A program made the position numbers and the translations under genes. From contig NZ_JAFKLZ010000002.1 of assembly GCF_017304615.1 (NCBI RefSeq), positions 847,396 to 911,395 of the forward strand: a DNA stretch of 64,000 bases, written 5' to 3'. A model generated the notes under the pieces. That model worked only from the letters and a program-made list of their open reading frames with translations. It had not been told where the DNA came from and searched no databases. Positions 2,650-60,285 of the stretch are shown piece by piece (within the stretch, counting starts at the first letter, position 1; each line of letters begins with the position of its first letter). Source of the stretch: Sphingomonas sp. (lineage in GTDB: Bacteria; Pseudomonadota; Alphaproteobacteria; Sphingomonadales; Sphingomonadaceae).

Positions 2650-2660
2650 TACCTCCCCTG

Positions 2661-2688
2661 GCGCGGGGCTAGTCCCCGCGCTTTTTTT
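2661..2688 (+). terminator. Rho-independent terminator between receptor and sulfatase genes
   Basis: GCGCGGGG (2661-2668) pairs with CCCCGCGC (2674-2681) around a 5-base loop and is followed by seven T residues. It lies between the receptor stop and the sulfatase RBS. It could lower transcription of the enzyme genes relative to the receptor rather than separate two units, since no obvious second promoter fits in the 57-base gap. Confidence 0.8.
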
Positions 2689-2706
2689 CACGACACGGAG
2701 GCAGGC

Positions 2707-4125: not shown

Positions 4126-4128
4126 CGG

Positions 4129-12013: not shown

Positions 12014-12126
12014 CGGGGGAACGCTGTCGCAGGAGCGCACGGTCAGCCGTGCTCTCCGGCGGCAGCGGGCTGACCCGTTGCGGTTTCGACGCCGAGTTCC
12101 TTCAAGAGTGCCAAGCAGTATATCGG

Positions 12127-14606: not shown

Positions 14607-14619
14607 TCAGGAGGCGGAT

Positions 14620-39511: not shown

Positions 39512-41287
39512 TCAGTCAAAAACCAGCCAGAAAATTTCATGGGGTTCCAGACTCATTGCGCCGGCTGGAAACTGACGGCCGGACAGCACGTCTCTGCACG
39601 TCCTGTCATGCTTCGCGGGACGTTGAAACGACTGAACTGTCGGCGACAAATTACACGCGCAAAGTAGAACCTGCCCCTTACCACGGACGAAACCCAAGAC
39701 GGCGTCATTCGCCAAGTCCAGAGGTTCGGCGGGGCCGGGCGTGATCAAGTCATTGAGCTTGAGTGCAGCCTCGGCATAGCCACGAAGGGCGCGATGCGCC
39801 TCCCCAGCGGATGTCCGGCCGGCTTCGTTCGCGTCCATGCGATGCCAGTCCATTTGTGGCCGCTGGAGCCAGCGACCTTCATCCCGCCGCGCCGGATCCG
39901 ATGTGTAATCCTGGTCGTTTTCAAGCGCGATCTCGTCCCCCATGTAGATCATGGGCCATCCGTCGAGCGCGAATATGACGCCGTAAAGCGCGCGTAGCCG
40001 GGCGAGTGCGAGATCCTGGTCGACGTCCGCCCGGCCCAGGCCGACCAACGATGCGGCCATGCCATTGGTCGATGGCACACCGCCCGGCGCGGTCTGGAAT
40101 CGCCGCCCCGCCGAAAAGCCGCCGCCGTCGTAGAAGGCGGACCAGCGCGCCAGATCGTCGGGCGATGCATAGTCGGCCAGCGCGTTCCAGATCAGGTCGT
40201 CGTGACACCGCACATAGTTCAGCCACGCCCCTCGATCGGGGCGCTTGGCGGCTGCGGTCAGCATCGTTCGAATGATGCCGGCATCCTGGTCGGCCAACCC
40301 CGCCCACAACGCCGTCATCACGCCGTTGTTATAGGCAAGATCGCAGCCGACTGTGCTGTCATTCCCGAAAAATGGGATCACGTCGGCCGGATTTTCGATG
40401 GCTTCGGTCAGCAGGACGACGCTGGGCGCCGCGATGTCCAACGCCGCGCGAAAGGCGGCAACAATGGTGTAAGCCTCTGGTTGGTTGCGACACGTCGTAC
40501 CCAGGCGCTTCCAGAGAAATGGTGCACTATCCAAGCGAAAGCCCTGCGCACCCTTGTTCGCCAGGAACAGCAAGACGTCGAGCATTTCGTAGAAGACGTC
40601 GGGATTGGCGTAATTGAGGTCCCATTGAAACGGATAGAAGGTCGTCCACACCCATCCGTCCATCTGGGCATCGTACGTGAAGGACCCCGGCGCAGTGTCG
40701 GGAAAAACGTCGATCAGCGTAGCGCTGTATGCGTCCACGGCCTCTGATCCGAGCACGTGATAATAAGCACGGTATTTCGGGTCGCCGCGGCGCGCGCGTT
40801 CGGCCCAGTCATGCTCGCGGGCGGTGTGATTGCAGACGATGTCCAGCATCAGTCCCATGCCGCGCGCCCGCATTTCGGCCGCCAGCCGCTCCAGCGTCGC
40901 GATGTCGCCGAGCGCTGGCTCGACCGCGCGATAGTTCGCCACGGCGAAGCCGCCGTCGCTGTCACCCGGCCGCGTTTCGAGCAGGGGCAGCGGGTGTAGC
41001 CAGCGAACCCCCAGTCCATCCAGATAATCGAGTTTGCCGATCACGCCCTCGAGCGTGCCGGCGAAGCGGTCAACATAAAAAGTGTAAACCGTCTCCCCGG
41101 ACTGCGAGACCCAGCCAGGTTGGGCGCGGCGGGCACGATCGATCGCCTTCAACTCAGGGCTTCGCGCGGCAGCAGCGTCGTCAAGGAGCGCGCAGACGCG
41201 ATCGAACAGCACCGGCGCGGCGTCGCGATAGATCAGTTCAAGTTGCTTCGCCAGCGAGCGGCGGGCGCCATCGGCGTCAACGGTCAT
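39512..41287 (-). CDS. Amylosucrase-like GH13 enzyme (SuxB-like)
   Basis: 591 residues of GH13 subfamily 4 type. Splits sucrose, releasing fructose and transferring or hydrolysing the glucosyl unit. Catalytic residues in family positions: Asp253 in GFRLDSAPF, Glu295 in LLTEAIE and His362-Asp363 in [17 protein letters not shown] is the first conserved region. The helical N-terminal domain (about 1-60) and C-terminal beta domain are present. No signal peptide, so sucrose is cleaved in the cytoplasm. The ATG overlaps the stop of the upstream carboxylesterase (ATGA), giving the order TBDR, esterase, amylosucrase. Amylosucrase and sucrose hydrolase cannot be separated by eye. Confidence 0.92.
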
Positions 41288-43002
41288 GCGATGGCCGCGC
41301 GTTCGGCTGCGTCAGGATCGAAAGCCACGCTGGGCCTGTCGTCGAAGATCATCGTCGGCGTATGGCCTTCTCCGACCGGGCGCCAGTCGGGCAGGCCGGC
41401 ATGGTTCGGATCGCCGGTTCTGGCAAAGGCGAGCAGGGCGTCCATCATTCGCCGGCTGAGCGCCATGGCGCGCGCTCCACCGCCGGTCATACTCGCACAG
41501 CGATCGGTGTTGCCGAACATGAAGGGAATATCGAGGCAATGGAACGCGCGGGGCCGCGCGTCGAGCACCGGGGTCTGCCAGGTAAACCAGTAAAGATACG
41601 CCGCGGCCGTGCTATGCCGCGCCTTGGCCTGCGCTTGTGCTACGGCGCTTTGACGGATCGGCGCAGTGGCGATGCGCGACCATAAATCGAAGCGGGATGC
41701 CTGGGGGGTACGGCGGCGAAACGCGGCAATCACGGCGCTCGATCGGCCGGGGAGGAAAGACTCGACCGCCGCCAACAGGTCGTCCTCGCGCATCGTTTCG
41801 CGTTCCGGATGATTGATCCCGGTCACGAACTCGTTGAGCGTACTGCCGATCATCATCGGCACGTCGGCTGACAGATCGGGCAGATCCGGCGCCTCGGGCG
41901 AGGCTAGCACCGTCGTGCCGTCGATCACCGGCGCGAAACCGAGCATATCGCCGAGCCTTCTGACGTCCAGGAACGCGCCAGGCTGCGGATTGGCCCGCGC
42001 AAGCACGGCCTCGCTCGCTCGGCGCAGTTCGGCATACGGCATTGCCCGGAGCCGATCGATCGTGTCCGGCGTGACCTTGAGTTCGGCCAACAGCAGATCC
42101 GACAGGCGCCTCGCCTTTTCCGGTGTGGCGCATCGGGCGAGGGAACCGCTCATCACCACGGCGCGGTGGAATAGACCACGAGCGGCTGGCATGCCCATCA
42201 GCGTGCTGACTTTGGCCCCGCCACCCGACTGGCCGAATATCAATACCTGCGTCGGGTCGCCGCCGAACCGTGCGATATTGTCGCGAACCCAGCGCAGCGC
42301 GGCGACGATGTCGAGCATGCCGACATTGCCCGATTGCGCGTATGCAGCTCCACAACGCGATAGGTCGAGGAACCCCAGCAGGTTGAGCCGGTGATTGAGC
42401 GTCACCACCACCGCATCACCGTGCGCGGCGAGCGCATGACCATCGAATGCCGGCAGATCGTGGCCCGACCCGGCGGCAAAGCCGCCGCCGTGCAGCCACA
42501 CCAGCACGGGACGTTGCCGTCCGTCATCGATCCCCGGGGTCCAGACGTTGATGCGCAGGCAGTCTTCGCCTTCGACGCTGTCGTTCCATTGGAAGATGAA
42601 CGCTTCTTCGTCGTTGAGCCGGCCGGTTCCCTTGTCTTGCGGGCAGACCGGTCCGAACGCGCGGGCGCTGCGCACGCCCGTCCATGGCGTCGGCGGCTGG
42701 GGCGGCCGAAAGCGGTTGGGGCCACCGGTATCCGCGCCGTAGGGGACGCCCTTGAAGATGAAAATGCCGTCCTGGCGGTAGCCGGCGACCTTGCCCGCCG
42801 TCGTCGATGCGATCGCCGTTTCCGCTCCAGCGGTCAGCGTGTCGCGCTGTCGGCCTGAAGGCAGCCCGGCGCCGTTCGAAACCGTCGACGCTAAGGCTGG
42901 GGAAGCCGCGGCTGATGCGGCCATCCCGGCGGCGGCCGTTTTTAGCCATGTTCGCCGGTCGATGCCGTCCGTCGTCGGCGCTGCGCCCGATCCGCTTACC
43001 AT
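41284..43002 (-). CDS. Tat-exported type-B carboxylesterase
   Basis: About 572 residues from ATG 43002, which has AAGGGG upstream and gives a normal Tat leader ([13 protein letters not shown] near residue 14). ATG 43029 and GTG 43086 are alternatives. [24 protein letters not shown], the oxyanion [10 protein letters not shown] and a nucleophile elbow GQSGGG (instead of the usual GESAGG) are followed by [12 protein letters not shown] with the catalytic His. It lies between a TBDR and an amylosucrase gene and overlaps the latter by 4 bases. I infer removal of acyl groups from imported acylated sucrose. Confidence 0.9.
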
Positions 43003-43089
43003 GGGCGTACCCCTTACTCTATCGCGCATGCCAGTGCCTTCGCGGTCGACGGCGCCCCCGGTCCAGCCGAGGACACCGTCGACCACAAT

Positions 43090-45318
43090 TCACTTGGAAT
43101 TGAGACGCAGCGTAATGCCGATCGTCCGGGGGCGCGGTCCGGCGAGCAAGGTCGGGCCGTTCGCCGCCGTCGGCCCGCGATAATCGGACAGATTATCGGC
43201 GAACAGCCGGATCTCGTAACGATCGATCCGCACGCCGGCGCTCATATTATAGAGCTGGTAGGGGTTGAGCGTATTGACCGTTGCGTCACCATTGCGTGCA
43301 CGCCCGATCGCCGTCACCGATGCGGTCGCGAAGAAATCGTAGTTGCCGAACCGATGATCGTAGGACGCGTCGCCGCGCCAGTTGAACGGCGGGGTATTGA
43401 GCAAGCGTTGACCGTTGCCGATCCGGGGATTGGCCGCGCCGAACGCGGGCAGAACTTTGGTGAACTTGGAATCGTTGACGTTGCCGACCACCGACAGGAC
43501 CAGGCCCTTGGCCGGCGTCCGCCACGTCGCCTCGACGTCGACGCCGCGCGAGCGCCCGTCGCCCAGATTGGCGAACGCCGCCAACCCGATCGACGTGTTA
43601 AACGCGCTTTGGATGTTGGTGTACTGGATGTCGTAAAGGCTGACCGCCAGACGCAGCGCACCATCGAACAACGTGCCCTTGGTGCCGATTTCCAGGTTAC
43701 GCAATTTGTCCGGCGTCAGCGAAATCGCGCTGGGTACGCCATCGGCGATCACCGCGTCGGCCTGCGCCTTCGACTGCAGGATGCCGCTGCGGAAGCCCGT
43801 GCCGGCGTTGAAGAAGATCAGCCAGTCCTTGCTCGGATAATAAGCCAGATTGGCGCGCCACGTCAGCGCGTCGGGGTTGGCGTTGCTGAGCACGTGGGAG
43901 CCGTTCGACAGCGAATCCGATTTCCGGGTGTCGTTGAAATAACGCAACCCGACCAGCGGGACGAGCTTGCCCCCGAACAGTTCGTAGCTGACTTCCGAAA
44001 AGACCGCGACGTTCTCGGTCTTGGTGATGGTGTTGCCGCTGAGCTTCAGCGCCGGGAAATTGATGTCGAACGTGTAGAGGCCCTTGGCGTTCTGATAGAA
44101 TACGCCTGCGACGCCGTGGAACGGACCCGTGCCGGAGGTCGCCACGCGGAATTCGTTCACGAAGTTCTGCGCGTTACCGCCATTGTTGAGCACGCCGATC
44201 CCGAGCGGCGCACCGAGGTTCAGGCCGACCTGAAAGCCGCCCGGCAGCGACTTCTGATAGGATGTCGCGTTGGTCACCGTGAACTTGCCGACGTCGCGAG
44301 TAATCGTGCCGGAGAAATATTCGGCACGCCGGCGGTCATAGCCAACAACGCTGCCTTGATACGCGGCATAGGGCGGATTCACCGAATTGATGACGTTGAG
44401 ATAATTCTGATCGGTGCTGAAATACCACCCGCGCAGCCGGACGGTGGTCAACGCATCGGGCTTCCACAGGAGCACGGCCTGAATATCCTTGGCGATGACG
44501 TTGTTGGCGTCCTTTTCGCGGGGCGTCCCGGTCGGCGCGCCGGCATAGATGTCGGCGGTGCCCGCGCGATAATCGTAACCACCGCTGATCCGCAGTGCGA
44601 GCTTGTCGGTTACCAGCGGGATGGAGAGCGCGGCGGCACCGCGATAGTTCAGCTTGCTGGCGTCGCGTGTCGTCGAGACCTCGGCTTCGCCTGCAACGGT
44701 AATCGATTGCAGATCGGGGTTCTTGGTGTGGTAGATGATGGTGCCTGCCGCGGAACCCTGGCCGTAAAGCGTTCCCTGCGGACCGCGCAGCACTTCCACC
44801 CGATCGAGATCGAAATAGTTGATCGGCGGCGCGCTCTGGTTGTTGGGCACGCCGAAAGGCGTGTCGTCGAGGTAATAGCCGACCAGGCCGTCGCCGATCG
44901 GACCGCCGGCGCCCGAGCCGCGGAAGGAATAGATGCGATACCCGGCGCCGATCTCCTGCGCTTGCGACGCGCCCGGAATGAGTTGGATCAAGTCGGCGCC
45001 ATCGCGGATGTTGCGCTCCTTCAACGTCGCGCCGGAAAATGCCTGGATCGCCGAAGGCACGCGGTTGAGCTTCTCTGCGCCGGTCTTCGACGCGGTCACG
45101 ACGATGTCGTCGTCGTAAGCGGTCGTCGTCTGTGGTGCTGCGTCCGGGTTGGCCGTGGTCGCCTGCTGCGCGATGGCCGGGAAGGCGGTCATGGCGACGA
45201 TAGCGGCGGCAATCGATGCGCCATGACGGATTGCGATGCGCAGTCCGCTCCGTCGGCCTTCTTCATGTTCGTTGTTGCTGACTGCCCGACAGTCGCCCGC
45301 GTACAGATGCTTCTGCAT
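43090..45318 (-). CDS. TonB-dependent receptor of the sucrose locus (SuxA-like)
   Basis: About 742 residues. ATG 45318 has GGGGAGAGGA upstream; an in-frame start at 45393 would run through the operator. A TonB-box-like DIVVTASKTG, then plug motifs NIRDGADLIQLIPGAS and DRVEVLRGPQGTLYGQGSAAGTI. The leader is unusually long, with hydrophobic residues at about 30-45 (AAAIVAMTAFPAIAQ). The C-terminus is LRLNSK without terminal Phe. A LacI-type operator lies 31 bases upstream of the ATG. It heads the TBDR-esterase-amylosucrase operon, so sucrose or a sucrose ester is the likely cargo. Confidence 0.92.
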   Translation of the reverse strand: MQKHLYAGDCRAVSNNEHEEGRRSGLRIAIRHGASIAAAIVAMTAFPAIAQQATTANPDAAPQTTTAYDDDIVVTASKTGAEKLNRVPSAIQAFSGATLKERNIRDGADLIQLIPGASQAQEIGAGYRIYSFRGSGAGGPIGDGLVGYYLDDTPFGVPNNQSAPPINYFDLDRVEVLRGPQGTLYGQGSAAGTIIYHTKNPDLQSITVAGEAEVSTTRDASKLNYRGAAALSIPLVTDKLALRISGGYDYRAGTADIYAGAPTGTPREKDANNVIAKDIQAVLLWKPDALTTVRLRGWYFSTDQNYLNVINSVNPPYAAYQGSVVGYDRRRAEYFSGTITRDVGKFTVTNATSYQKSLPGGFQVGLNLGAPLGIGVLNNGGNAQNFVNEFRVATSGTGPFHGVAGVFYQNAKGLYTFDINFPALKLSGNTITKTENVAVFSEVSYELFGGKLVPLVGLRYFNDTRKSDSLSNGSHVLSNANPDALTWRANLAYYPSKDWLIFFNAGTGFRSGILQSKAQADAVIADGVPSAISLTPDKLRNLEIGTKGTLFDGALRLAVSLYDIQYTNIQSAFNTSIGLAAFANLGDGRSRGVDVEATWRTPAKGLVLSVVGNVNDSKFTKVLPAFGAANPRIGNGQRLLNTPPFNWRGDASYDHRFGNYDFFATASVTAIGRARNGDATVNTLNPYQLYNMSAGVRIDRYEIRLFADNLSDYRGPTAANGPTLLAGPRPRTIGITLRLNSK

Positions 45319-45348
45319 AGTTCCTCTCCCCAAAATTCGATCGTTCTG

Positions 45349-45362
45349 TGCAATCGGTTGCA
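45349..45362. promoter_or_regulatory. LacI-type operator 1 of the sucrose locus
   Basis: TGCAATCGGTTGCA, a near-perfect palindrome with central CG, 31 bases upstream of the SuxA-like receptor ATG on the minus strand. It shares TGCAANCG with the sites at 46580-46593 and 52166-52179. The probable binding protein is the LacI-family regulator at 52298-53338. Confidence 0.7.
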
Positions 45363-45430
45363 TGCAACTAACACGCGATCCGCGGCTCTGCAAGATGCTG
45401 CTAGTTCGCTGTCATCAGCGGTCGGATAAC

Positions 45431-46507
45431 TCAGGATCCCGTGGCGAAGGCGGCGCGAAGCGCGCTCTTCCAAGTCGACGTGAATTCGGTCGCGGCCCGA
45501 GATCGAGGCGCGATGAAATCGAAGCCGTGATACGCGCCCGGCGTCACCAGCAATTGGGTCGGGACGCCGGCCTTCACGAGCCGCGCGGCATAAGCGACGT
45601 CCTCGTCCACGAAGAGATCGATCGCGCCGACGCCGATAAATGTCGGGGGCAAGCCTGCAAGGTCTGCGATTCGTGCCGGGACCGCGCCGTAGGGAGCTGT
45701 CACGCCGCCGGCCGGGCGGCCCAGGAAACTGCTCCAGCCGAAGCGATTGCCCGCTTCGTTCCAGCCGATCGTGCCGATGAACGGCGGCACGCGCCGGGTG
45801 CTGCCGGTGCGGTCGTCGAGCATCGGATAGATCAGAACCTGATAACAGATGGGAAGCGCGCCGCGGTCGCGCGCCGCGATCGCCAGCATCGCCGCCAGGC
45901 CGCCGCCGGCGCTTTCGCCCATCACCGCGATCCGCCGCGGATCGACGCCCAGCGCGTCGGCGTTGGCGTGCAGCCATGCCAGCGCGGCGTAGCAATCGTC
46001 CACCGGACCCGGAAACGGTGTTTCTGGCGAAAGGCGATAATCGACTTCGACCACCACGCAGTCGAGTTCCGCGGCAAGGCGCTGGGAGGCGACGATCGTG
46101 TCGGCCACCCGACCCAGGATCATGCCGCCGCCATGGATATGGAGGACAGCCGGGCGGCGGGCCTTGTCCGATCGAGCGCCGATCACCACCACCGGAACGG
46201 GCGGGGCGTTGCGCATGCCCGGAACGACGCGCCGCTCGACGCTCGCGGCCGGTGCCGGGAGCGGCGCGGGTGGGGGCGGCGCGTTTTGCCGGAGGGTGCG
46301 GACCGCCGCCGGCGTGAGCGGAGAGGGCAAGGGGCGAGCCAGGACCAGCCGGGCGCCGTCGCGTAGCTCGGGATCGACGCGGCGGAGCATCGCGTCCGTT
46401 GCTGAAGGAGGGGCGGCGGAAACCGGAGTCTGTGACCTGGCGGCGATCGGCGCCATGACCCCCGCGGTCAGGATTCCGAGCTGGAATGCCCGGCGGTTCA
46501 TCGTCAT
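45431..46507 (-). CDS. Secreted alpha/beta hydrolase (HSL-type esterase)
   Basis: 358 residues. The N-terminus MTMNRRAFQLGILTAGVM resembles a Tat/secretory leader ending near SQT. The oxyanion motif is HIHGGGMILG, the nucleophile elbow GESAGGG, with Asp in GAIDLFVDED and His in GAYHGFDF. It is a close paralogue of the esterase at 51081-52139 (VDYRL-PETPFPGPV, QLLVTPGA-H, TWKSALRAAFA-type endings), pointing to a local duplication. It is divergent from the esterase at 46667 with an operator between them. Probable role: deacylation of an imported sugar ester. Confidence 0.88.
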   Translation of the reverse strand: MTMNRRAFQLGILTAGVMAPIAARSQTPVSAAPPSATDAMLRRVDPELRDGARLVLARPLPSPLTPAAVRTLRQNAPPPPAPLPAPAASVERRVVPGMRNAPPVPVVVIGARSDKARRPAVLHIHGGGMILGRVADTIVASQRLAAELDCVVVEVDYRLSPETPFPGPVDDCYAALAWLHANADALGVDPRRIAVMGESAGGGLAAMLAIAARDRGALPICYQVLIYPMLDDRTGSTRRVPPFIGTIGWNEAGNRFGWSSFLGRPAGGVTAPYGAVPARIADLAGLPPTFIGVGAIDLFVDEDVAYAARLVKAGVPTQLLVTPGAYHGFDFIAPRSRAATEFTSTWKSALRAAFATGS

Positions 46508-46579
46508 CGGCCTCTCCTTTTCTTGCCTCTCCGGCTAGGCCGGGCGGGCGACCTTTTGTAGCAGATAGATGGAAATCCT

Positions 46580-46593
46580 TGCAAACGATTGCG
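46580..46593. promoter_or_regulatory. LacI-type operator 2 of the sucrose locus
   Basis: TGCAAACGATTGCG, differing from a perfect TGCAANCGNTTGCA palindrome at the last base. It lies between two divergent esterase genes, 73 bases from the minus-strand start at 46507 and 74 bases before the plus-strand ATG at 46667, so one site could control both. Confidence 0.65.
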
Positions 46594-46666
46594 TGAAGAT
46601 GCTTAGTGGCGCGAACGGTGCCGCCAGCGACAAGGGCATCGATCGATTGGGATGGGAGAGGATTTC

Positions 46667-47776
46667 ATGAAGAGCGGGGTGTTCAGCCATCTGCGTCTGT
46701 TGATGGCGGTAGGATTAGTGGCTCTGGCGCCGCTCGGCGCGCCGCCGCTCACTGCCCAGACGGCCAACATTCCCCCGATCAAGGTTGACGCAAACGGGAC
46801 CGTCGAGGTTCCGGCAATGACGGTCCCCGTGTCGAGCCTGCTCAGCCCGGAGGCCAAGGCCTATGTCGCCGATCATCTGCGCGAGATGCAGCAACCGTCG
46901 CTGTTGCAGCAAAAAGACGGCGTGCCGGTGTTCATGGCGCCCTATCTCGCGCGTCAGAATGCGTTGTTCGCGCACAAGCGCACCGACACCAAGATCGGCG
47001 GGGTTCGGGTATTCGATTATGCCCCGACCGCTGGCATCGCCCCGGGCAACCGCAACCGGGTGCTGATCAATCTGCACGGCGGCGGATTCATGGGATGTTT
47101 TCCGGGCTGTGCCGAACTCGAATCGATCCCGCTCGCCACGCTCGGCCGGATCAGGGTCGTGTCGGTCGATTATCGCGAGGGTCCCGACCATCGCTTCCCG
47201 GCCGCCAGCGAGGATGTCGCCGCGGTCTATCGCGCGCTGCTCAAGCAATACCCGGCCCAGAATATCGGCATTTACGGCTGTTCGGCTGGCGGGATGCTGA
47301 CTGGCATGGCGACCGCCTGGTTCCAGGTCCACGGCCTGCCCCGCCCAGGTGCGATCGGGATCTTCTGTGCCGGCATGACGATGTCGGGTTTCGGGTTTGG
47401 CGGCGACGCCGATTTCGTGACCGCGCCCCTGGGCGAGGCGCGCGCCGCCCCCGCCTGGCCGCCCGCCGACCGCAGCACCGCGACCAAGCTACCCTATTTT
47501 GCCGGCACCGATCCCGCCGATCCCCTGGTGTCGCCCGGCTCGTCGGATGCAGTGATGCGCAAGTTTCCGCCGACGCTAATCATCACCGCGACGCGCGGCT
47601 TCGAATTCAGCGCGGCGGTCCACACGCACACCCAATTAGTCCGGTTGGGGGTCGATGCGGAACTCCACGTCTGGGAAGGGCTGTTCCACGGCTTTTTCTA
47701 TAATGCGGACGTTCCCGAATCGCGCGACGCCTACAACGTGATGATCCGCTTCTTCGATCGTAAGCTCGGGCGCTGA
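46667..47776 (+). CDS. Secreted alpha/beta hydrolase, paralogue of the trehalose-locus esterase
   Basis: About 369 residues. GGGAGAGGA before ATG 46667 and a signal peptide ending near LTAQ set the start. The oxyanion motif is LHGGGFMGCF, the nucleophile elbow GCSAGGM, with a late Asp region (TATRGFEFS) and His (LFHGFFYN). The shared blocks ASEDVAAVYRALLK and NIGIYGCSAGG link it to the esterase at 4129-5157 in the trehalase locus. It is followed 19 bases later by another esterase gene. This homology across two disaccharide loci supports a sugar-deacylating role for both. Confidence 0.87.
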   Translation: MKSGVFSHLRLLMAVGLVALAPLGAPPLTAQTANIPPIKVDANGTVEVPAMTVPVSSLLSPEAKAYVADHLREMQQPSLLQQKDGVPVFMAPYLARQNALFAHKRTDTKIGGVRVFDYAPTAGIAPGNRNRVLINLHGGGFMGCFPGCAELESIPLATLGRIRVVSVDYREGPDHRFPAASEDVAAVYRALLKQYPAQNIGIYGCSAGGMLTGMATAWFQVHGLPRPGAIGIFCAGMTMSGFGFGGDADFVTAPLGEARAAPAWPPADRSTATKLPYFAGTDPADPLVSPGSSDAVMRKFPPTLIITATRGFEFSAAVHTHTQLVRLGVDAELHVWEGLFHGFFYNADVPESRDAYNVMIRFFDRKLGR

Positions 47777-47795
47777 CCGGCCGGGCGATGCCGTC

Positions 47796-48707
47796 GTGAC
47801 CGCAGCACTGCCGAATGCGGCCAGCGGTTTCACGCCGCTGCCGCGACCGGGCAGACGGGGCGCCCTGTTCGTCCATCACCTGGCGGGATCGTATGGTCTG
47901 CTGCCACGTGACGTGTTCGTCTGGGTGCCCGACGCGCCCGTGCCCCAAGGCGGCTTTCCCGTGCTCTATCTGCAGGACGGCCAGAACCTGTTCGACGCGC
48001 GGCTGGTGCCGTTCGGCACGGCTTGGGAGGCCGATCGCAGCGTCTCGCGGCTCGTCGACGCGGGTGGGATCGTGCCGGTCATGGTCGTCGGGATCGCGAG
48101 TACCGCCGAGCGCTTCACCGACTACGCTCCGGCATCGATGATGGCGCAGTTGCCGGCGCCGGCGCGCGCCGCGGTGGAGTTGGCCTGGGGCGGACGCGCG
48201 CGGTCGGCCGATTATGCTCGGTTGGTGATCGAGGACGTAAAGCCGCTGATCGACCGGCATTTCCCGACCCGTCCCGATCCGGAAGCGACGTTCGTCGGAG
48301 GATCCTCGCTGGGCGCGATGGCCGCGCTGGAAATATTGTCGGCCTATCCGGACCAAGTCGGCGGCGCGCTATGTCTGTCGGCGCATTTCAGTCTGCTGCC
48401 CGTGACAGGGACTGAACAGCTCCCCGCAGGCTTCGGTGCCGATGTGACGGCGGCGGCGGCCGGGTTTGCGGCCGATCTGCCGCGCGCCGGACGGCATGTG
48501 CTATGGATCGACCGAAGCGCGCTCGGGATCGATCGCTTCTATGGTCCGTCGCACACCGCTGTCGCCGATGTGTTGAAGGCGCGTGGCTTCATCCAGGATG
48601 TTGACCTCGTCATGCGCTGCTATCCGGGGGTCGGCCATGACGAGGGTGCGTGGCGCGACCGGCTGGACGATGCGCTGAGCTTTCTTCTTGCATGCCGAAC
48701 CGGCTAG
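47796..48707 (+). CDS. Esterase of the enterochelin-esterase-like alpha/beta hydrolase group
   Basis: 303 residues from GTG 47796; no signal peptide. PVLYLQDGQNLFD, nucleophile elbow GGSSLGAM and the C-terminal GVGHDEGAW (catalytic His-Asp/Glu region) place it in the Fes/IroE-like, COG2819-type hydrolases, which include sugar-ester and siderophore esterases. It follows the esterase at 46667 by 19 bases, probably in the same transcript. Its stop TAG and the stop of the convergent transporter gene share the palindrome CTAG at 48704-48707. Confidence 0.85.
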   Translation: MTAALPNAASGFTPLPRPGRRGALFVHHLAGSYGLLPRDVFVWVPDAPVPQGGFPVLYLQDGQNLFDARLVPFGTAWEADRSVSRLVDAGGIVPVMVVGIASTAERFTDYAPASMMAQLPAPARAAVELAWGGRARSADYARLVIEDVKPLIDRHFPTRPDPEATFVGGSSLGAMAALEILSAYPDQVGGALCLSAHFSLLPVTGTEQLPAGFGADVTAAAAGFAADLPRAGRHVLWIDRSALGIDRFYGPSHTAVADVLKARGFIQDVDLVMRCYPGVGHDEGAWRDRLDDALSFLLACRTG

Positions 48708-50029
48708 GCTTGGCCCTCGGCGGGCGGCGGTTCGCGTGTCCACAGCACGCATAGCGCCGCCAGACCCATCAACACGCCGCACAATGTCAGCACGTTACGC
48801 GCGTCGCCGCCGAGCCAGCGATCGAAATAGAGCGGCATCGTCGCGGCATTGATCAGCATCGGCACGACGATCATCATGTTGAAGATCCCCATGTAGACAC
48901 CGGTGCGCTCTGGCGGGATCGCGCCGGACAGGATGATATAGGGATTGCCCATGATGCTGCCCCATCCGATGCCGATGCCGATCGCCGGCAGCAACAACCA
49001 CGTTGCCTGCGTGATATGCGGGATTGCCAGCATGCCCAGGCCCGCCGCGATCAGGCAACAGCAATGCATCGTCGCCGCGCCCCAGCGGCGCGTCAGCGGC
49101 ACCATCGCGAGTGCTGCGACGAACGCTACGCCGTTGTAGAACCCGCCCAGCATGCCGTTGTCGAGCACGGCGCGGCGAAACCCTTCGGACAGCGGATTGC
49201 TCTCGCCATAGACCGACCGGCTGATCGCGTAGATCACGTAATTCCAATAGGCGAACATCGCATACCATTGGAACAGGCTCATCAGCGCCAGCTTGCGCAT
49301 CGCCATCGGCATGGTCGCGATCGCGTCCCAGATTTCCCACAACGTCGCGCCGACGGTGCGCGGCTTGGCGGCGATCGCTGCGCGCGTCGGTGCGTCCAGC
49401 GGCAATTCGGGCACGCGCACGATCGACCAGACGATCGTCGTGAACGACAGAACCGCACCGATCGTGAACGCCGCGCGCGTGATCACCGGGATGTTATGCG
49501 CATCGACCGCGTTGACGCTGAAACCGAGCACGTTGACCATGAACGTCGGCGCCAGATAGGCGAGCATCTGGCCCAGCCCCGTGAACGCGCTTTGCGACAG
49601 GAAGCCGAAATGGCGCTGATCGTTCGACAGCCGGTCGCTGACATAGGCGCGATAGGGTTCCATCGTGATGTTGTTGCCGGCGTCGAGTATCCATAGCGTG
49701 CAGACCGCGGTCAGGATTGTCGGGCTGAGCGGCATCGCGAACAGCCCGATCGAACACAGCACCGCACCGAACAGGAAATAAGGCGTCCGGCGGCCCCAGC
49801 GTGACATGGTGCGGTCGCTCATCGCACCGATCAGGGGTTGGACAAGCAGCCCGGTCAGCGGCCCGGCCAGTTGGAGTAGCGGCAGGCTGGCTTCATTGGC
49901 CCCGAGATAGGAATAGATCGGGGCCATGTTGGACTGCTGCAGTCCGAAGCTGAATTGCAGGCCGAGAAACCCGAGATTCATCTCGATGATGCGCAGCAGC
50001 GACAGACGCGGCTTTAGGGCAAGAGTCAT
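48704..50029 (-). CDS. SLC45/SUT-type sucrose (disaccharide) transporter (SuxC-like)
   Basis: About 441 residues, 12 hydrophobic helices. SDRTMSRWGRRTPYFLFGA between helices 2 and 3 and DAGNNITMEPYRAYVSD near helix 4, followed by QRHFGFLSQS, are the marks of the GPH/SLC45 sucrose-proton symporters. ATG 50029 overlaps the upstream esterase stop (ATGA); the in-frame start at 50098 lies inside that gene. In Xanthomonas a transporter of this kind (SuxC) sits in the sux locus with amylosucrase, a TBDR and a LacI repressor, as here. Expected role: bringing deacylated sucrose into the cytoplasm for the amylosucrase. Confidence 0.88.
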   Translation of the reverse strand: MTLALKPRLSLLRIIEMNLGFLGLQFSFGLQQSNMAPIYSYLGANEASLPLLQLAGPLTGLLVQPLIGAMSDRTMSRWGRRTPYFLFGAVLCSIGLFAMPLSPTILTAVCTLWILDAGNNITMEPYRAYVSDRLSNDQRHFGFLSQSAFTGLGQMLAYLAPTFMVNVLGFSVNAVDAHNIPVITRAAFTIGAVLSFTTIVWSIVRVPELPLDAPTRAAIAAKPRTVGATLWEIWDAIATMPMAMRKLALMSLFQWYAMFAYWNYVIYAISRSVYGESNPLSEGFRRAVLDNGMLGGFYNGVAFVAALAMVPLTRRWGAATMHCCCLIAAGLGMLAIPHITQATWLLLPAIGIGIGWGSIMGNPYIILSGAIPPERTGVYMGIFNMMIVVPMLINAATMPLYFDRWLGGDARNVLTLCGVLMGLAALCVLWTREPPPAEGQA

Positions 50030-51081
50030 CGACGCTGCTCCCGGGGCGCGCGCGGCATCAAATGACCGCCGAGCCAAGCATCGAACAAAGCGGGCCACTG
50101 CGCATTGGGCGTGCCGGGCATTCCTAGTCCAAAGCCATGGCCGCCGCGTTCGAATAAATGCGCTTCGGCCGGTACCTTGGCGGCGCGCAACGCCGCCAGC
50201 ATCCTAAAGCTGTTGTCGGGGGGCACGGCCGTGTCGTCGAGCGCATGCACGATGAAGGTCGGCGGCGTCGTGCCGTCGACATGCTGGTCGGGGGAGCGGC
50301 GAGTGACGAGTGGGTCATCTGGGGCGGGGCCAAGCAGCGACAACGCGGTCTGCGGATTGGTCAGACCCGCCACCAGCGTAATGACCGGATAGATCAAGCC
50401 GGCGGCGATCGGGCGCGCATCCAGCCCGTCGATCGAATCGCGGGCGGCGTAGGTATCCTCGGCAAACCCGGTGGCCAGTGAGGCGGCGAGATGCCCCCCG
50501 GCAGAATAACCCAGCACCGCCACCTTCGCCGGATCGATTGTGTAACGCGTCGCCTGCGACCTGATGACGCGCATCGCGCGTTGGGCATCCTGCAAGGGGA
50601 CGATGCTGCGCCGGCTCCATCCTTCGCCGGGCAAGCGGTGGATCAACACGAAAACGGTATATCCCCGAGCCGTCAGGACCTGCGCCGTATCGCCGCCCTC
50701 GTGGGTCCCCACGATGAAGGTGTAGGCGCCGCCGGGGATCAGCAGGATGGCGCAGCCGTTGCTCGCGCGAGGGCGGAACACATGCAGTGTCGGTCTGTCG
50801 ACGTTGCGGAAAAATCCGGGCGGAGCGTTTGGTGGGACTGGGTGCGACTGGAATCCCGTCTCGGGCGGTTGGTCCCGCCATAGCGGCAGCGTCTCCGCCG
50901 CCCGCCAAGCGGGCGAAAGCGGACCTAGGGGATTGGACGCAGGCCCCGGCGGTGCCGCCTCGGCGGCGGCGGATCGCGCCAGCATCAGCCCGACCCCGGC
51001 GCCGGCCAGCACCGCGCGTCGGTCAATGGCTCCGGTATCTCCAGCGCGGTCGGAGGATTTGTTCGATGCGGACCGACGCAC
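50026..51081 (-). CDS. Secreted alpha/beta hydrolase (acetyl-esterase-like)
   Basis: About 351 residues from GTG 51081, whose G is shared with the stop TAG of the preceding gene. The leader IDRRAVLAGAGVGLMLARSA resembles a Tat signal. IPGGAYTF is the oxyanion strand, LGYSAGGHLAAS the nucleophile elbow, with Asp in VHALDDTAVP and His in RGGHGFGLG; this pattern matches BD-FAE/acetylxylan-esterase-like deacetylases. It is the middle gene of an esterase, esterase, sucrose-transporter operon, each pair overlapping. It may remove short acyl groups. Confidence 0.88.
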   Translation of the reverse strand: MRRSASNKSSDRAGDTGAIDRRAVLAGAGVGLMLARSAAAEAAPPGPASNPLGPLSPAWRAAETLPLWRDQPPETGFQSHPVPPNAPPGFFRNVDRPTLHVFRPRASNGCAILLIPGGAYTFIVGTHEGGDTAQVLTARGYTVFVLIHRLPGEGWSRRSIVPLQDAQRAMRVIRSQATRYTIDPAKVAVLGYSAGGHLAASLATGFAEDTYAARDSIDGLDARPIAAGLIYPVITLVAGLTNPQTALSLLGPAPDDPLVTRRSPDQHVDGTTPPTFIVHALDDTAVPPDNSFRMLAALRAAKVPAEAHLFERGGHGFGLGMPGTPNAQWPALFDAWLGGHLMPRAPREQRR

Positions 51082-52139
51082 TATCCGCGCCCCGCAAACG
51101 CAGCGCGAAGCGCGCTTTTCCAGGCGGCGGTGAACTCGCGCGCCACGCGGGCCTGCGGCACGACAAAGTCGAACGCGTGGAACGCGCCCGGCGTGACCAG
51201 CAATTGGGTCGGCACGTCGGCGGCGATCAAGCGCCGGGCATAGGCGATGTCCTCGTCGGCAAAAAGGTCGATCGCGCCGACCCCGATGAAGCATGGCGTC
51301 AGGCCGGTCAGCGCCGCAACGCGCGCGGGCACGGCCCCCGCCGGCGCCCGCGATGCCCCGGCCGGCACGCCAAGAAAGGCGCTCCAGCCGAACACGTTCG
51401 CCTCCGGCGACCAGCCGATCGGTTTGGCCCGGCCGGCCGGCATCGGCGTGGTCCCGGTGCGATCGTCGAGCATTGGGTAGAGCAAAATCTGACCGCATAG
51501 TGACACCTCGCCGCGGTCGCGCGCGGCGATCGCGACCAACGCGGCGAGCCCGCCGCCGGCACTTTCGCCCATGACGGCGATGCGCGTCCGGTCGACGCCC
51601 AACGCCGCGGCGTTGCGATGCAGCCAGACCAGCGCGGCGTAATTGTCCTCGACCGGTCCCGGGAACGGCGTTTCGGGCGCGAGGCGATAATCGACGTTGA
51701 CGACAACACAATCGAACTCGGCCGCGATCGTCTGGCAGAAGGCGGTCATGTTTTGGGCGCGGCCCGAAATCATCCCGCCGCCGTGGATATGCAGCATGGC
51801 GGGGCGGGTTACCCCCGGCTTGGCGCCGATCACCTGGATCGCGACGTCCGGGTCGCCGCGGCGTCCGGGGATGCTTTGCAGCGTGACGGTTGGAGCCGGC
51901 GGCGGCAGCGTGGGGGGCGCGACCCATGACGACCGCAGCGCGGGGAGACCCGCGCGTGACAGCGGAGGAAATTTCTGGCCGAGCATTACCTGCGCGGCCG
52001 GCCGCAGTTCCGGGTCGACGAGCTTGAGCGGGTCGGTGCCAGGCTCGACCGCTGCCGCCATTTTGGTAGCCTGCGTCAACAGGAGCACGGTGCTGGTGGC
52101 GAGGATACCCCGATGCAGGTCGCGCCGCGTCACCGTCAT
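51081..52139 (-). CDS. Secreted alpha/beta hydrolase (HSL-type), paralogue of 45431-46507
   Basis: 352 residues. The leader MTVTRRDLHRGILATSTVL is Tat-like. The oxyanion motif is HIHGGGMISG, the nucleophile elbow GESAGGG, with Asp in GAIDLFADED and His in GAFHAFDF. Long near-identical stretches shared with the esterase at 45431-46507 show a recent duplication within the locus. It is the first gene of the esterase-esterase-transporter operon, with operator 3 27 bases upstream. It is divergent from the LacI-family regulator gene. Confidence 0.88.
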   Translation of the reverse strand: MTVTRRDLHRGILATSTVLLLTQATKMAAAVEPGTDPLKLVDPELRPAAQVMLGQKFPPLSRAGLPALRSSWVAPPTLPPPAPTVTLQSIPGRRGDPDVAIQVIGAKPGVTRPAMLHIHGGGMISGRAQNMTAFCQTIAAEFDCVVVNVDYRLAPETPFPGPVEDNYAALVWLHRNAAALGVDRTRIAVMGESAGGGLAALVAIAARDRGEVSLCGQILLYPMLDDRTGTTPMPAGRAKPIGWSPEANVFGWSAFLGVPAGASRAPAGAVPARVAALTGLTPCFIGVGAIDLFADEDIAYARRLIAADVPTQLLVTPGAFHAFDFVVPQARVAREFTAAWKSALRAAFAGRG

Positions 52140-52165
52140 TTCATCTCTCCCAGTCGCAACCGCTC

Positions 52166-52179
52166 TGCAATCGATTGCG
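52166..52179. promoter_or_regulatory. LacI-type operator 3 of the sucrose locus
   Basis: TGCAATCGATTGCG, one base short of a perfect palindrome. It lies 27 bases upstream of the esterase start at 52139 and 119 bases upstream of the divergent lacI-type ATG, so it could serve both the operon and autoregulation. Confidence 0.7.
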
Positions 52180-52297
52180 TACGATACTTTCTATCGAGAT
52201 GTACGGGTCAGCGCAATCGCCGTGATGCCCGATGCGCCGCTGTCGCCGCGGCGCGTCAGGCGCGTTGCACCATCGGGGCGATGAGGTATGACACGGC

Positions 52298-53338
52298 ATG
52301 CGACCGCCAAAAGCAAATCTTGTCAGCGGTGTTGCTGGCGCGCCGTTGAAGATGGCAGATATTGCCAAGCTGGCAGGTGTCTCGACCTCGACCGTTTCAC
52401 GCGCCTTGGCGGAAAGCCAACTCATCCCGGTCGAGACTCGCCGCCAGATCCAGCAGATCGCAATCGAACACGGCTATGTGATCGATCAACGCGGCCAGCG
52501 ACTTCGATCAAACCGGACACGTACGATATGTGTCGCGATCCCGCTTGGGCACGAAGCCGACCAACTCATCTCCGACCCCTTCTTCCTGCAGTTGTTCGGG
52601 CACATCGCCGACGAAGTGTCCGCGCGGAACTATGACGTGTTGCTGTCGCGCATCCCTGCGCCGGCACCAGGCTGGCTCACCCGCCACGTGCAGTCACAAA
52701 AGGCGGACGGATATATCGTTGTCGGCCAAAGCAACCAGCACGTCGAGATCAACGCCGCGGCCCGGACGTTCCTGCCGCTGGTGGTGTGGGGCGCGCATCT
52801 ACCGGAACAGGCCTATTGTTCGGTCGGGTCGGACAATATCGGTGGTGCGCGGGCAGCGGTCGATGCGTTGTTGCAGGCCGGGCGGCGTCGGATCGTATTT
52901 CTGGGCGCGGCCGACCTGCCGGAAATCGAAATGCGGCGGCGCGGATACGTCACCGCGCTTGAACGCGCTGGGGTTCCGATCGACGGATCCTTGATCCAGC
53001 CCGCCCATTTCACGGGCGATACCGCTTTGGCGGCCGTCCAGAATTTGCTCGCGCGGGGTGTGCTGTTCGATGGCATCTTCGCCGCCTCCGATGTCATCGC
53101 TTTGGGAGCGATTCGGGCGCTGCAGACCGCTGGCCTGGAAGTGCCGCAGGATGTCTCGGTTATCGGGTTCGACGACCTCGAACTTGCCGAGCACTCGCAC
53201 CCGCGATTGACGACGGTGCGTCAGGACTTGGCGCACGGGGCGGCGGCGCTGGTGGAATTTCTGTTCCGGCGCCTGGAAGGCGAGGAAACGCCTTCCGCAA
53301 CCTTGCCGGTGCGGATTGTCGAGCGGGATTCGGTCTGA
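52298..53338 (+). CDS. LacI-family repressor (SuxR-like)
   Basis: 346 residues. The N-terminal HTH (about 19-45) reads MADIAKLAGVSTSTVSRAL, followed by a hinge helix (QRGQRLRSN) and a periplasmic-binding-protein-like ligand domain (about 75-335) with GFDDLELAEHSHPRLTTVRQ, the LacI/GalR dimer signature. It is divergent from the esterase/transporter operon. Central-CG palindromes upstream of three transcription units in the same region are the expected targets. The inducer is probably a sucrose-related sugar; it is not readable from the sequence. Confidence 0.93.
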   Translation: MRPPKANLVSGVAGAPLKMADIAKLAGVSTSTVSRALAESQLIPVETRRQIQQIAIEHGYVIDQRGQRLRSNRTRTICVAIPLGHEADQLISDPFFLQLFGHIADEVSARNYDVLLSRIPAPAPGWLTRHVQSQKADGYIVVGQSNQHVEINAAARTFLPLVVWGAHLPEQAYCSVGSDNIGGARAAVDALLQAGRRRIVFLGAADLPEIEMRRRGYVTALERAGVPIDGSLIQPAHFTGDTALAAVQNLLARGVLFDGIFAASDVIALGAIRALQTAGLEVPQDVSVIGFDDLELAEHSHPRLTTVRQDLAHGAAALVEFLFRRLEGEETPSATLPVRIVERDSV

Positions 53339-56356: not shown

Positions 56357-57046
56357 TTACACGCGGATAAGCCCGACAAGGCCGGCGGCATTGCCGCCCA
56401 ATATGGCCGCTTGATCCGCCTCCCTCAGTCTCGCGTGAAAACCGACCGGGTCGGGTTCGGCCATGTCGAAGGGGTAGTCACTCCCCAGGCACAGTTTGTC
56501 GGCACCGTGGGTGCGCACGAGGCTGTCGAGCTGGTCCTGATCGAATACCAACGTATCGAGCCACAGTTTGCGGAGATAGGTAGAGGGTTCATGCCGGCAA
56601 TGTTCGGAGCAATCGGCGCGGGCGCGCCAGCCATGGTCCATTCCGCCCCAATAGCCCGGCGTGTAACCCCCGCCATGGGCGACGCAGATCCGCAATCCGG
56701 GAAAATTGTCCAGCACCCCACCGAAAATGAGGTGGCCGATGGCCAGCGTGGATTCGAGCGGATTGCCGATCAGGTTGTTGAAATAATATTCGCTCATCCG
56801 CTGCGCATGGGAAAACCCCAGCGGGTGGAGAAACAACAGGATGCCGAGCTCTTCTGCAGCAGCGAAAAAGGGCCGGAACTCTTCGGCGTGCAAATCCTTG
56901 CCGTTCACGTTCGAATTGATTTCGATGCCGCGAAGGTCGAGATCATGCACGCAGCGCAGCATCTCGGCGATCGCCATCTCGACATTCTGTAATGGAGCGG
57001 TCCCCATGCCGACGAGCCGGTCGGGATGCTGCGCAACCGCGAGATT
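56357..57046 (-). pseudogene. 5'-truncated amidohydrolase (ACMSD-like)
   Basis: The frame carries about the last two thirds of an ACMSD-type amidohydrolase: HPDRLVGMGTAPLQ, EINSNVNG, LFLHPLG (metal His), ICVAHGGGYTPGYWGGMDHGW (metal His) and CLGSDYPFDMAEPDP (metal Asp). The first 100 or so residues, with the HxH metal motif, are missing; coding homology stops near 57046 and a stop follows upstream. ATG 57007 would allow a 216-residue product, which should be inactive. Relatives such as LigW decarboxylate aromatic acids. The break coincides with the 5' break of the opposite-strand decarboxylase fragment. Confidence 0.75.
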
Positions 57047-57244
57047 GTCTGTATCTCGATCCTAATCGCGGTCGGCGCACACGGTGTCGCGAAGCATTTC
57101 AAATATGCTCACAAGATCGGCATCACCGACGAAGAGCTGAAAGAGATCATCATCCAGACGATCCCGTATGCCGGCCTGCCCAAGGCGCTGAGCGCGATGG
57201 CGTTGTTACGGCGTATCCAGAGCGGCGCCGAACTCCAGCTGTAG
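57026..57244 (+). pseudogene. 5'-truncated carboxymuconolactone decarboxylase-family gene
   Basis: A 72-residue frame with the core of a CMD/AhpD-like protein: REIVCISILIAVG, then GITDEELKEIIIQTIPYAGLPKA. Members normally have over 110 residues with an N-terminal helix pair that is absent here. Its 5' end abuts the 5' end of the truncated amidohydrolase on the other strand, so both appear to have lost their starts in one deletion. Expression is doubtful. Confidence 0.7.
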
Positions 57245-57297
57245 CGCGCGCACCGACGCCATAGCCTTGTGGCACGGGGTTGCGTAGGATCGCGGCC

Positions 57298-58041
57298 ATG
57301 GTCGAGACGGCAACTTCCCCGGTCAAGTCGGCGATGCGGACGCTCGACATCATCGAATATGTCGTCGCGCGCGACCGAGCGGTGGTGGCGCAGGAAATCG
57401 CCGCGGCGCTCGCCATTCCCGTCAGCAGTCTTTCTTATCTGCTCAACACGCTGGTCGAGCGCGACTTCCTGGTCCGGGATGGGCGGCGTTATGTCGCTGG
57501 GCCAGGCCTCGAGCGGTTGCAGGCGCGGACGCACAATTTCTCGATCGCCGAACGTGCGGCGCCGCTCGTGCGGTCGTTGCGGCTACAGATCAACGAAACG
57601 GTTTCCTTCTTCGTCCGGCGCGGGTGGGAAATGGAAGCGATCGTGACGGAGAGCAGCGATCACGCACTGCGCTATGCCGTCCAGATCGGTAGCTTGACCC
57701 CGCTCTATTGCTATTCCGCAGGCAAGGCGCTGCTCGCGTCGATGCCGGAAGCCGAATTTGCGCGTTACCTGGCGGAAAGCGACCGGCCGGCGGTGACGCC
57801 TGCGACGATCACGGACGCGCAAGCGCTGTCCGAAGACATCGCCGAGATTCGACGGACCGGAATCGCCTATACGCGCGGTGAGAGCACCCCGGGGATTACG
57901 GCGCTCGGTCGCGCAGTAGTCGTCGATGGCGAGGCGGTCGGCGCGTTCGCCATCGCTATCCCAAGCGTCCGCTTCGACCATGACCTTGAACAGCGTGCGG
58001 TCGAACTCCTTATGACCACCAGCGCATTGCTGGCGCGTTGA
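57298..58041 (+). CDS. IclR-family transcriptional regulator
   Basis: About 247 residues from ATG 57298 (57280 is also in frame). The N-terminal winged HTH (about 8-65) includes AMRTLDIIEYVVARDRAVVA and IPVSSLSYLLNTL; the C-terminal effector domain (about 80-245) has GSLTPLYCYSAGKALLASMP and EIRRTGIAYTRGESTPGITALG. IclR proteins often govern aromatic catabolism. It converges on the LigM-like gene, so that cluster or the truncated aromatic genes on its left are plausible targets. Confidence 0.92.
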   Translation: MVETATSPVKSAMRTLDIIEYVVARDRAVVAQEIAAALAIPVSSLSYLLNTLVERDFLVRDGRRYVAGPGLERLQARTHNFSIAERAAPLVRSLRLQINETVSFFVRRGWEMEAIVTESSDHALRYAVQIGSLTPLYCYSAGKALLASMPEAEFARYLAESDRPAVTPATITDAQALSEDIAEIRRTGIAYTRGESTPGITALGRAVVVDGEAVGAFAIAIPSVRFDHDLEQRAVELLMTTSALLAR

Positions 58042-58072
58042 GCGGCGTTTCCTCGCCACTCAGCGCTTCCAG

Positions 58073-59473: not shown

Positions 59474-60212
59474 TCTCTCCTTGGGACCGGGGTTCTTCAT
59501 GGATCGGGGTCTCCAGCCATCGGGCGATGGCGGCATTGAGCGCGTCGGGCGCCTCCGCGGGCAGCATGTGGCCGGCACAATCGACGACCACCAGATCGGC
59601 GTCAGCGACGGCTGTGGCGATCGCACGGTGCTGGTCAGGTGGGCTCCAGCGATCCTCGCTGCCGCAAGCGACCAATGTCGGGCAGGCGATAGCGGGCAGC
59701 AGGCTCTCGACTTCCGGTCGGGCAAGTAACGCGGCGATCTGCGCTTCAAATCTTGCAAGGCCGGCATCGATGCACATCGCACGCAATCGCTGCATGAGCG
59801 ACGGGTCGGCAAGATTGGCAGGTGCGACCATTGGCGGCAGCCAGGAATCGACCAACGCCTCCATTCCGCTTGCGCGGCCAAGGTCGCGCAGAGCGAATCG
59901 AGCTTCGGCTTCATGGTCGCGCGGCAGGTGGACCCCGGTGCTGACCAGCGCCAGTCGATCGACTCGCTCCGGCGCTTGCCGGACGACTTCCAGGGCAACC
60001 CGCGCGCCCAGGGAGTGACCTAACAGCGCGAAACGCCGGGGCGCGGCGTCGAGTACCCTGCGCGCCATCGCCTGAATACTGGCGCAAAGACCGTAATCGG
60101 CCACCATGGAGTCCGGAAACGCGGCAAGCTGGTCAGCAAAGATCCGACGATCGCAGATCAGACCCGGCAGCAGGATCAATGGCACGACGCTTTCCGAAAA
60201 CTTCCCAAGCAT
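59436..60212 (-). CDS. Alpha/beta hydrolase
   Basis: About 258 residues from ATG 60212 (a TTG at 60236 is in frame). LILLPGLICDRRIF is the oxyanion loop, LLGHSLGARVAL the nucleophile elbow, Asp in CGSEDRWSPP and His in CAGHMLPAEAP complete the triad. No signal peptide. It overlaps the start of the ligM-like gene by 38 bases in the same direction and is probably co-transcribed. It may release a methoxy-aromatic acid from an ester; this is only inferred from position. Confidence 0.87.
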   Translation of the reverse strand: MLGKFSESVVPLILLPGLICDRRIFADQLAAFPDSMVADYGLCASIQAMARRVLDAAPRRFALLGHSLGARVALEVVRQAPERVDRLALVSTGVHLPRDHEAEARFALRDLGRASGMEALVDSWLPPMVAPANLADPSLMQRLRAMCIDAGLARFEAQIAALLARPEVESLLPAIACPTLVACGSEDRWSPPDQHRAIATAVADADLVVVDCAGHMLPAEAPDALNAAIARWLETPIHEEPRSQGENDDGFQSTAAAR

Positions 60213-60217
60213 GAAAA

Positions 60218-60231
60218 TTCGTGTATGCGAA
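60218..60231. promoter_or_regulatory. Small dyad in the divergent hydrolase/MTHFR promoter region
   Basis: TTCGTGTATGCGAA has 4-base outer arms TTCG/CGAA and a central TA. It lies in the 73-base gap between the divergent hydrolase and MTHFR starts. It could be an IclR-type operator, but the dyad is short and unsupported by a second copy. Confidence 0.25.
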
Positions 60232-60285
60232 AACAATCTGACCCGCTAGGACTAATGTCGGGTGGAGAGGGATGAGGCGAAACAG

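Follow-up and report, generated by a model that had tools for sequence, protein, structure and literature searches.

A putative acylsucrose utilisation locus with six candidate esterases in Sphingomonas sp.

Overview

The window analysed here is a 64,000-nucleotide stretch of Sphingomonas sp. DNA that forms the end of contig C8 of a 3.34-Mb genome. Ten genes at 39512-53338 of the window encode an amylosucrase-like enzyme, a TonB-dependent receptor (TBDR), a sugar carrier resembling SLC45 and plant SUC proteins, a LacI-family regulator and six esterases. Together they probably form a sucrose-ester (acylsucrose) utilisation locus, a reading to which we assign a probability of about 0.74. The original prediction, made from the sequence alone, had proposed that acylated sucrose is taken up and deacylated and that the sucrose is then imported and cleaved. 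This stays the best reading, given the conserved synteny, the operators confined to the locus, the replacement of one sucrose enzyme by another in related loci and the results from control loci. All ten predicted genes are present at about the places proposed. They are real open frames, each with a clear family, according to the list of frames and to profile and structure-relative searches. Below, G numbers denote other genomes compared, L numbers the loci or sequence stretches compared, and C numbers contigs of the source genome.

Replacement of the sucrose enzyme in related loci

Many related loci carry the same receptor and esterases with a GH68 enzyme in place of the amylosucrase, as confirmed with Pfam in 5/5 tested; the GH68 loci often also have a fructokinase-like ROK gene. 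The loci of Novosphingobium EMRT-2 (receptor identity 78%) and Sphingobium RC1 (44%) share the esterases and the LacI gene with the window and differ in the sucrose enzyme. GH13 amylosucrases and GH68 enzymes are unrelated families that both act on sucrose. That two unrelated sucrose enzymes replace each other next to a single set of receptor and esterases is the best indication of a sucrose core in the substrate. In the source genome, GH68 was not found; a fructokinase-like ROK relative is located on C1 (41% identity, one stop within the match), and none lies beside the amylosucrase gene.

In the receptor tree (29 rows, 28 of them different), the amylosucrase and GH68 loci are intermixed. The amylosucrase label requires five changes, of which starred branches force at least four, and its clustering does not exceed that of shuffled labels (166/500 as low). 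Some rows of this tree have long branches, and the GH68 genes of L121 and L122 lie between two receptors and may belong to either.

The frequency of these associations was counted in 22 records obtained from receptor searches alone, leaving out the window and L014 and L007, which were found by other queries; the records are not all independent, since the same genes recur in the RC1 and TomTYG64 stretches. An amylosucrase or GH68 gene was detected within the fetched stretch in 18/22 (19 with an incomplete GH68 at the L137 edge) and at most 8 kb from a receptor in 17/22. The stretches without a sucrose enzyme were those of G664, G787 and TomTYG64, the last of which stops within the fructokinase gene. 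At least two esterase matches were present in 20 of the 22 stretches, the exceptions being G787 and G354 (the latter cut by a contig end), and with tannases excluded and a minimum identity of 35%, 17/22 had at least two no further than 8 kb away. In 20 control loci of another receptor family, drawn from 11 of the same 15 genomes and covering up to 8 kb on each side, neither a sucrose enzyme (0/20) nor an esterase match (0/20) was found.

Conservation of gene order

The order of the amylosucrase, carrier, LacI and esterase genes, whose conservation had been suggested as a check, recurs in four other genomes. G729 and G623 have all ten genes, including six esterases, in the same order. G134 and Brevundimonas sp. 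SH203 (Caulobacterales) keep this order with five esterases, the type-B carboxylesterase (COesterase) being absent. The synteny in these four genomes indicates that the locus is not a chance gathering of genes.

The receptor query matched 13/151 genomes of the genus sample (window included), 7/348 in the family of Brevundimonas SH203 (that strain included), 1/6 in the genus of G134, and four plasmids. The receptor family extends at least to Sphingomonadaceae plasmids and Caulobacteraceae, at 62-78% identity, and the closest relatives on named plasmids are from Novosphingobium. At L117, L109 and L111 the receptor match was imperfect: it was split in two pieces in Novosphingobium THN1 and had internal stops in the two other genomes.

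Operators and regulon

Three predicted LacI-type operators were found in the window, two of them in intergenic regions where a script flagged a near-palindrome, and the third as a copy read by eye. The pattern TGCAANCGNTTGC gave four strand matches in the window, corresponding to three sites (mean of 0.04 in window shuffles). In the whole genome it matched these three sites only, all at the locus and upstream of every gene group: ahead of the receptor gene, in the gap that separates the two divergent esterase genes, and in the one that separates the LacI gene from the last esterase gene. This indicates that the esterases and the sucrose genes look like one regulon.

Operators occur at like places in relatives. 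All three were found in L007 with L009, the same three plus more in L120 and L134, and two of three in L014, where none lies ahead of the receptor. An exact match was present at 13/26 target loci and at 0/20 control loci.

Locus layout

The coordinates of the genes and operators are listed in Table 1. The operons had been predicted to overlap. The close-packed runs are 51081-50026-48704, with 4-base overlaps, and TBDR-COesterase-amylosucrase; the esterase genes 46652 and 47796 form a separate pair on the plus strand. The former of these two is real, and its listed frame begins at 46652 rather than at the predicted 46667.

Table 1. Features of the locus, with positions in the window
Feature	Position	Strand	Remarks
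Amylosucrase-like GH13 enzyme, 591 aa	39512..41287	-	No leader seen; own subclade, altered motifs
Type-B carboxylesterase (COesterase)	41284..43086	-	Tat-like leader; S287, E419, H516 conserved
TonB-dependent receptor (TBDR)	43090..45318	-	Start set at ATG after likely ribosome-binding site
LacI-type operator 1 (predicted)	45349..45361		30 bases ahead of TBDR start
Abhydrolase_3 esterase, GESAG	45431..46507	-	Tat-like leader
LacI-type operator 2 (predicted)	46580..46592		Amid divergent esterase genes; read by eye
Abhydrolase_3 esterase, GCSAG group	46652..47776	+	Sec-like leader; probable acid residue E318
PF00756 esterase	47796..48707	+	Without leader, probably cytoplasmic
SLC45/SUC-like MFS sugar carrier	48704..50029	-	Assigned by family and nearest solved relatives
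BD-FAE/PaeX-like carbohydrate esterase	50026..51084	-	Tat-like leader
Abhydrolase_3 esterase, GESAG	51081..52139	-	Tat-like leader; paralogue of 45431
LacI-type operator 3 (predicted)	52166..52178		Amid last esterase and LacI gene
LacI-family regulator	52298..53338	+	Profile match

Esterases

The six enzymes, which are candidate acylsucrose esterases, belong to four Pfam families, and the three Abhydrolase_3 enzymes fall in two subgroups. Two of the enzymes, 45431 and 51081, are paralogues, and each matches the L007 orthologue of the other (58% and 72%). The BD-FAE/PaeX-like enzyme resembles the pectin and xylan acetylesterases PaeX and AxeA1. The alignments with relatives comprised 8, 21, 11, 8, 17 and 6 rows, window included, with some of the 21 from outside such loci. 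In these, the catalytic serine and histidine were kept in 6/6 esterases and the acid in five, so that five have a conserved Ser-acid-His set (the acid of 46652 being probably Glu) and the PF00756 enzyme has Ser and His.

Most of the esterases had been predicted to carry export leaders. Judged by motif and eye, four have a twin-arginine (Tat) motif near the start and one a Sec-like leader, and the PF00756 enzyme has none. Because it lacks a leader, this enzyme is probably cytoplasmic, and deacylation may therefore end inside the cell.

Amylosucrase-like enzyme

The closest solved relatives of the 39512-41287 product are 2wpg, 9isa and 4ays (E about 1e-129). Its scores to the best solved amylosucrase (436 bits) and to a solved sucrose hydrolase (428 bits) are nearly equal, suggesting that either activity is possible. 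It has 591 aa, against 628-656 in the solved enzymes. The catalytic Asp, Glu and Asp motifs of amylosucrase (GH13 subfamily 4, GH13_4) are present in this enzyme, among them the nucleophile, acid/base and HDD motifs. Its putative substrate is sucrose, as suggested by the replacement with GH68 elsewhere.

In the amylosucrase tree, in which long branches meet, the enzymes of five multi-esterase loci form one supported group (99/98), those of two single-esterase loci a second (100/99), and six from plain sux-type loci a third (100/100). The motifs of the active-site surroundings differ between these clades: the locus enzyme has HDDLIW, whereas the six plain sux-type enzymes have SIAFLWKQ/E, EAIV and HDDIGW. 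We can only guess that the altered motifs widen the pocket for an acyl group. The amylosucrase of L138, a cut locus in which one esterase was seen, has the plain-type motif. Amylosucrase matches (E up to 1e-60) were rare in the family sample, occurring in 5/298 genomes, window included.

Sugar carrier

The closest solved relative of the carrier at 48704-50029 is SUC1 (8bb6; E 4e-20), followed by SLC45A4. The carrier did not reach the cut-off of NCBIfam TIGR01301 GPH_sucrose (103.6 versus 511 bits), and it is considered SLC45-like, a putative rather than a proven sucrose carrier. Among the best 80 of at least 583 confirmed SLC45 relatives, seven had an amylosucrase match of at least 40%, and one of them, Brevundimonas, had the esterase set. 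The remaining 73 of these best bacterial relatives of the SLC45 and plant SUC carriers had no such match in the fetched stretch (one at 35%).

Comparison with sux loci

The sux locus of Xanthomonas campestris, a carbohydrate utilization containing TonB-dependent receptor (CUT) locus, is described as having four genes, suxA-B-C-R, with no esterase among them (PMC1790865). In sux, a TBDR, an amylosucrase, an inner-membrane sugar carrier and a LacI-family repressor are encoded together in one locus (PMC1790865). The corresponding four functions were found together at 39512-53338. Unlike the esterase-free sux locus, the locus described here has six esterases under the same operators.

No esterase match was seen in four of six plain sux-type loci, and the other two each had a single match at a distance of 4 kb from the carrier gene. 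In a single-esterase variant (L010:7541-12800 and L064:4817-9782), an Abhydrolase_3 esterase gene lies in a run between those of the receptor and the amylosucrase, with the carrier and LacI genes adjoining. The receptor next to the amylosucrase in plain sux-type loci was best matched by another receptor query (25-26%), and not by the one from the window, in 6/6, Xanthomonas SuxA lying outside this comparison. The locus is therefore not a plain sux locus, because both its receptor group and its esterases differ. It works like a sux/CUT locus with an added deacylation stage.

To the original prediction, no description of this arrangement was known, and none was found in open full text (subscription papers and preprints were outside the scope). 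Within the same scope, no description of bacterial genes for eating acylsugars was found, nor any paper joining acylsugar with Sphingobium or acylsucrose with bacterial degradation. Loci that combine GH68 with this receptor or one related to it were likewise found without a functional description.

Proposed pathway and alternatives

In the proposed pathway, the TonB receptor would pass acylated sucrose across the outer membrane, and the five exported esterases, of three Pfam families, would strip acyl groups in the periplasm. The SLC45-like carrier would then move sucrose, perhaps still mono-acylated, to the cytoplasm, where the leaderless PF00756 esterase would complete deacylation and the amylosucrase would split sucrose into fructose and glucose or alpha-glucan. 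The LacI-type protein would keep all gene groups shut via the three operators until the sugar comes. That the substrate is an ester, that flow runs in this direction and that the LacI-type protein acts as a repressor are predictions. The esterases of the set may differ in the positions or acyl groups that they cut.

Several results weigh against this reading. The other half of the target loci (13/26) lack an exact match to the operator. The operator is of a common LacI-family type also found at many loci without amylosucrase, so it indicates one regulator and not sucrose, and a reversed control pattern gave two matches in the source genome. The genome-wide pattern scan placed no acyl-CoA genes in the regulon, and the acyl-CoA ligase cluster of the window (9350-19237) has no operator. 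In about 50 kb of G664, which has the receptor and esterases, neither amylosucrase nor GH68 was matched, and G787 (39% receptor) has neither a match to these enzymes nor the esterase set in the fetched stretch. In Sphingobium RC1, the receptor and GH68 sit 14 kb apart. The esterase families of the locus are broad. The control comparison favours the target loci in two ways, as the loci that supplied the esterase queries were themselves targets, and longer stretches were compared for targets (13-38 kb) than for controls (9-19 kb).

The presence of all four sux functions could mean an ordinary plain-sucrose locus where unrelated esterase genes gathered, and esterases are common in sphingomonads. 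We rejected this reading, which is very improbable given the operators found only at this locus, the conserved order, the other receptor group, the separate amylosucrase clade and the absence of esterases from control loci (0/20). An acetylated sucrose-containing oligosaccharide of the raffinose or fructan type, or another glycoside yielding sucrose, would suit the esterase that resembles PaeX and AxeA1; this too is most unlikely, because Pfam scans found no exported glycoside hydrolase freeing sucrose among the ten genes. Sucrose esters from sources other than the plant trichomes or surfaces named in the original prediction, for example industrial emulsifiers, sucrose acetate isobutyrate or the sugar esters of freshwater algae and fungi, are an improbable substrate. 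Novosphingobium EMRT-2 and THN1, which have close receptor relatives, are given as freshwater sources, but the spread of the receptor family across Sphingomonadaceae plasmids and Caulobacteraceae suggests an old natural substrate, and RC1 with its 44% receptor comes from tomato roots.

Within the acylsucrose reading, it is doubtful, though conceivable, that the acyl groups are mainly aromatic (feruloyl, sinapoyl and coumaroyl, with acetyls), as in phenylpropanoid sucrose esters, rather than short-chain aliphatic. Tannase-family relatives fit aromatic acyl groups: two Pfam-confirmed tannase/feruloyl-esterase genes in or beside the L007 locus, and weak tblastn matches (28-29%) in L122, L123 and L127. 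The window itself has a tannase-family gene (17381-19237) and a syringate O-demethylase gene (58073-59998; 877 bits versus a cut-off of 800), both without an operator. Against this variant, none of the six core esterases is a tannase, sphingomonads often carry lignin genes for other reasons, and the acyl-CoA genes of RC1 could indicate fatty acids, if not steroids.

A broader version of the acylsucrose reading is offered tentatively, at somewhat less than even odds. The locus would then be a mobile catabolic route, dedicated to plant defence acylsucroses, on which bacteria from plants and from fresh water would live. Acyl groups would be removed step by step in the periplasm and the cytoplasm, the altered active site of the amylosucrase subfamily may admit sucrose that still bears some acyl groups, and a sister pathway elsewhere in the window would handle trehalose that is acylated and sulfated. 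Acylsugars, built on glucose or sucrose, deter insects from plants of the tomato family, acyl sugars are secreted by tomato roots (PMC8651005), and among the trichome-specific families of one tomato study Sphingomonadaceae stood out most (PMC8067393). If tests confirmed it, the acylsucrose reading would reveal a way for microbes to use a widespread type of plant defence compound as food. The locus offers candidate genes, a regulator with its operator, and a receptor marker for surveys, and microbial consumption of plant acylsugars thereby becomes a directly testable question.

Acyl-CoA genes near related loci

The plasmid pTomRC1a of Sphingobium RC1 (L118:15866-35545) carries the 44% receptor, three genes annotated as AMP-binding and one annotated as acyl-CoA dehydrogenase. 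These are followed by an MFS_2 carrier, a beta-lactamase-family esterase, an Abhydrolase_3 esterase, LacI, ROK fructokinase and GH68 genes, and further on by a second acyl-CoA dehydrogenase, a thiolase and a CoA-transferase. Plasmid pTomTYG64b holds the same genes across the stretch fetched. The gene at L118:22003-22764, annotated as 3-hydroxyacyl-CoA dehydrogenase, is a short-chain dehydrogenase by Pfam and was set aside. The acyl-CoA genes near the RC1 module could mean aliphatic acyl groups, which would support the acylsucrose reading more weakly than the evidence above. RC1 is described as a tomato-root isolate able to break down steroid saponins, with genes for steroid degradation (PMC10653915). 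The acyl-CoA genes on its plasmid may therefore serve steroids, a further point against the acylsucrose reading. The main text of that paper has no word beginning with acyl, sucrose, esterase, TonB or GH68. G710 groups its carrier, esterase, LacI, fructokinase and GH68 genes with one for a 44% receptor, and the ligases are missing there.

Other genes in the window

At 9350-19237, genes for a TonB receptor, an acyl-CoA ligase, a 3-hydroxyacyl-CoA dehydrogenase, an MFS protein, a COesterase and the tannase/feruloyl-esterase family lie in a row. In G700 (L128, L141), relatives of the COesterase (59%), MFS (67%) and acyl-CoA ligase (54%) of the window are found beside a GH68-type module; this link is one case, and the window cluster is without an operator. 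Apart from the G700 acyl-CoA ligase, twelve extra flank stretches (L141-L152) gave few and weak matches to beta-oxidation genes.

The genes at 43-7915 encode a TonB receptor, a sulfatase, an Abhydrolase_3 esterase, an MFS carrier and a trehalase, with an AraC regulator at 8072. The trehalase passes two of three trehalase cut-offs. Relatives of the esterase, MFS and trehalase occur together in 5/5 of the best-matching other genomes, with a sulfatase relative of at least 63% in 3/5, and a second esterase-MFS-trehalase set is present on C1 of the source genome. This locus may serve acylated, sulfated trehalose; actinobacterial trehalose lipids would be one example, named here as a guess.

At 56357-62039, genes for the syringate O-demethylase DesA (above the NCBIfam cut-off), MTHFR-like, PurU and IclR proteins and an amidohydrolase were found, and these are probably genes for methoxy-aromatic breakdown near the locus.

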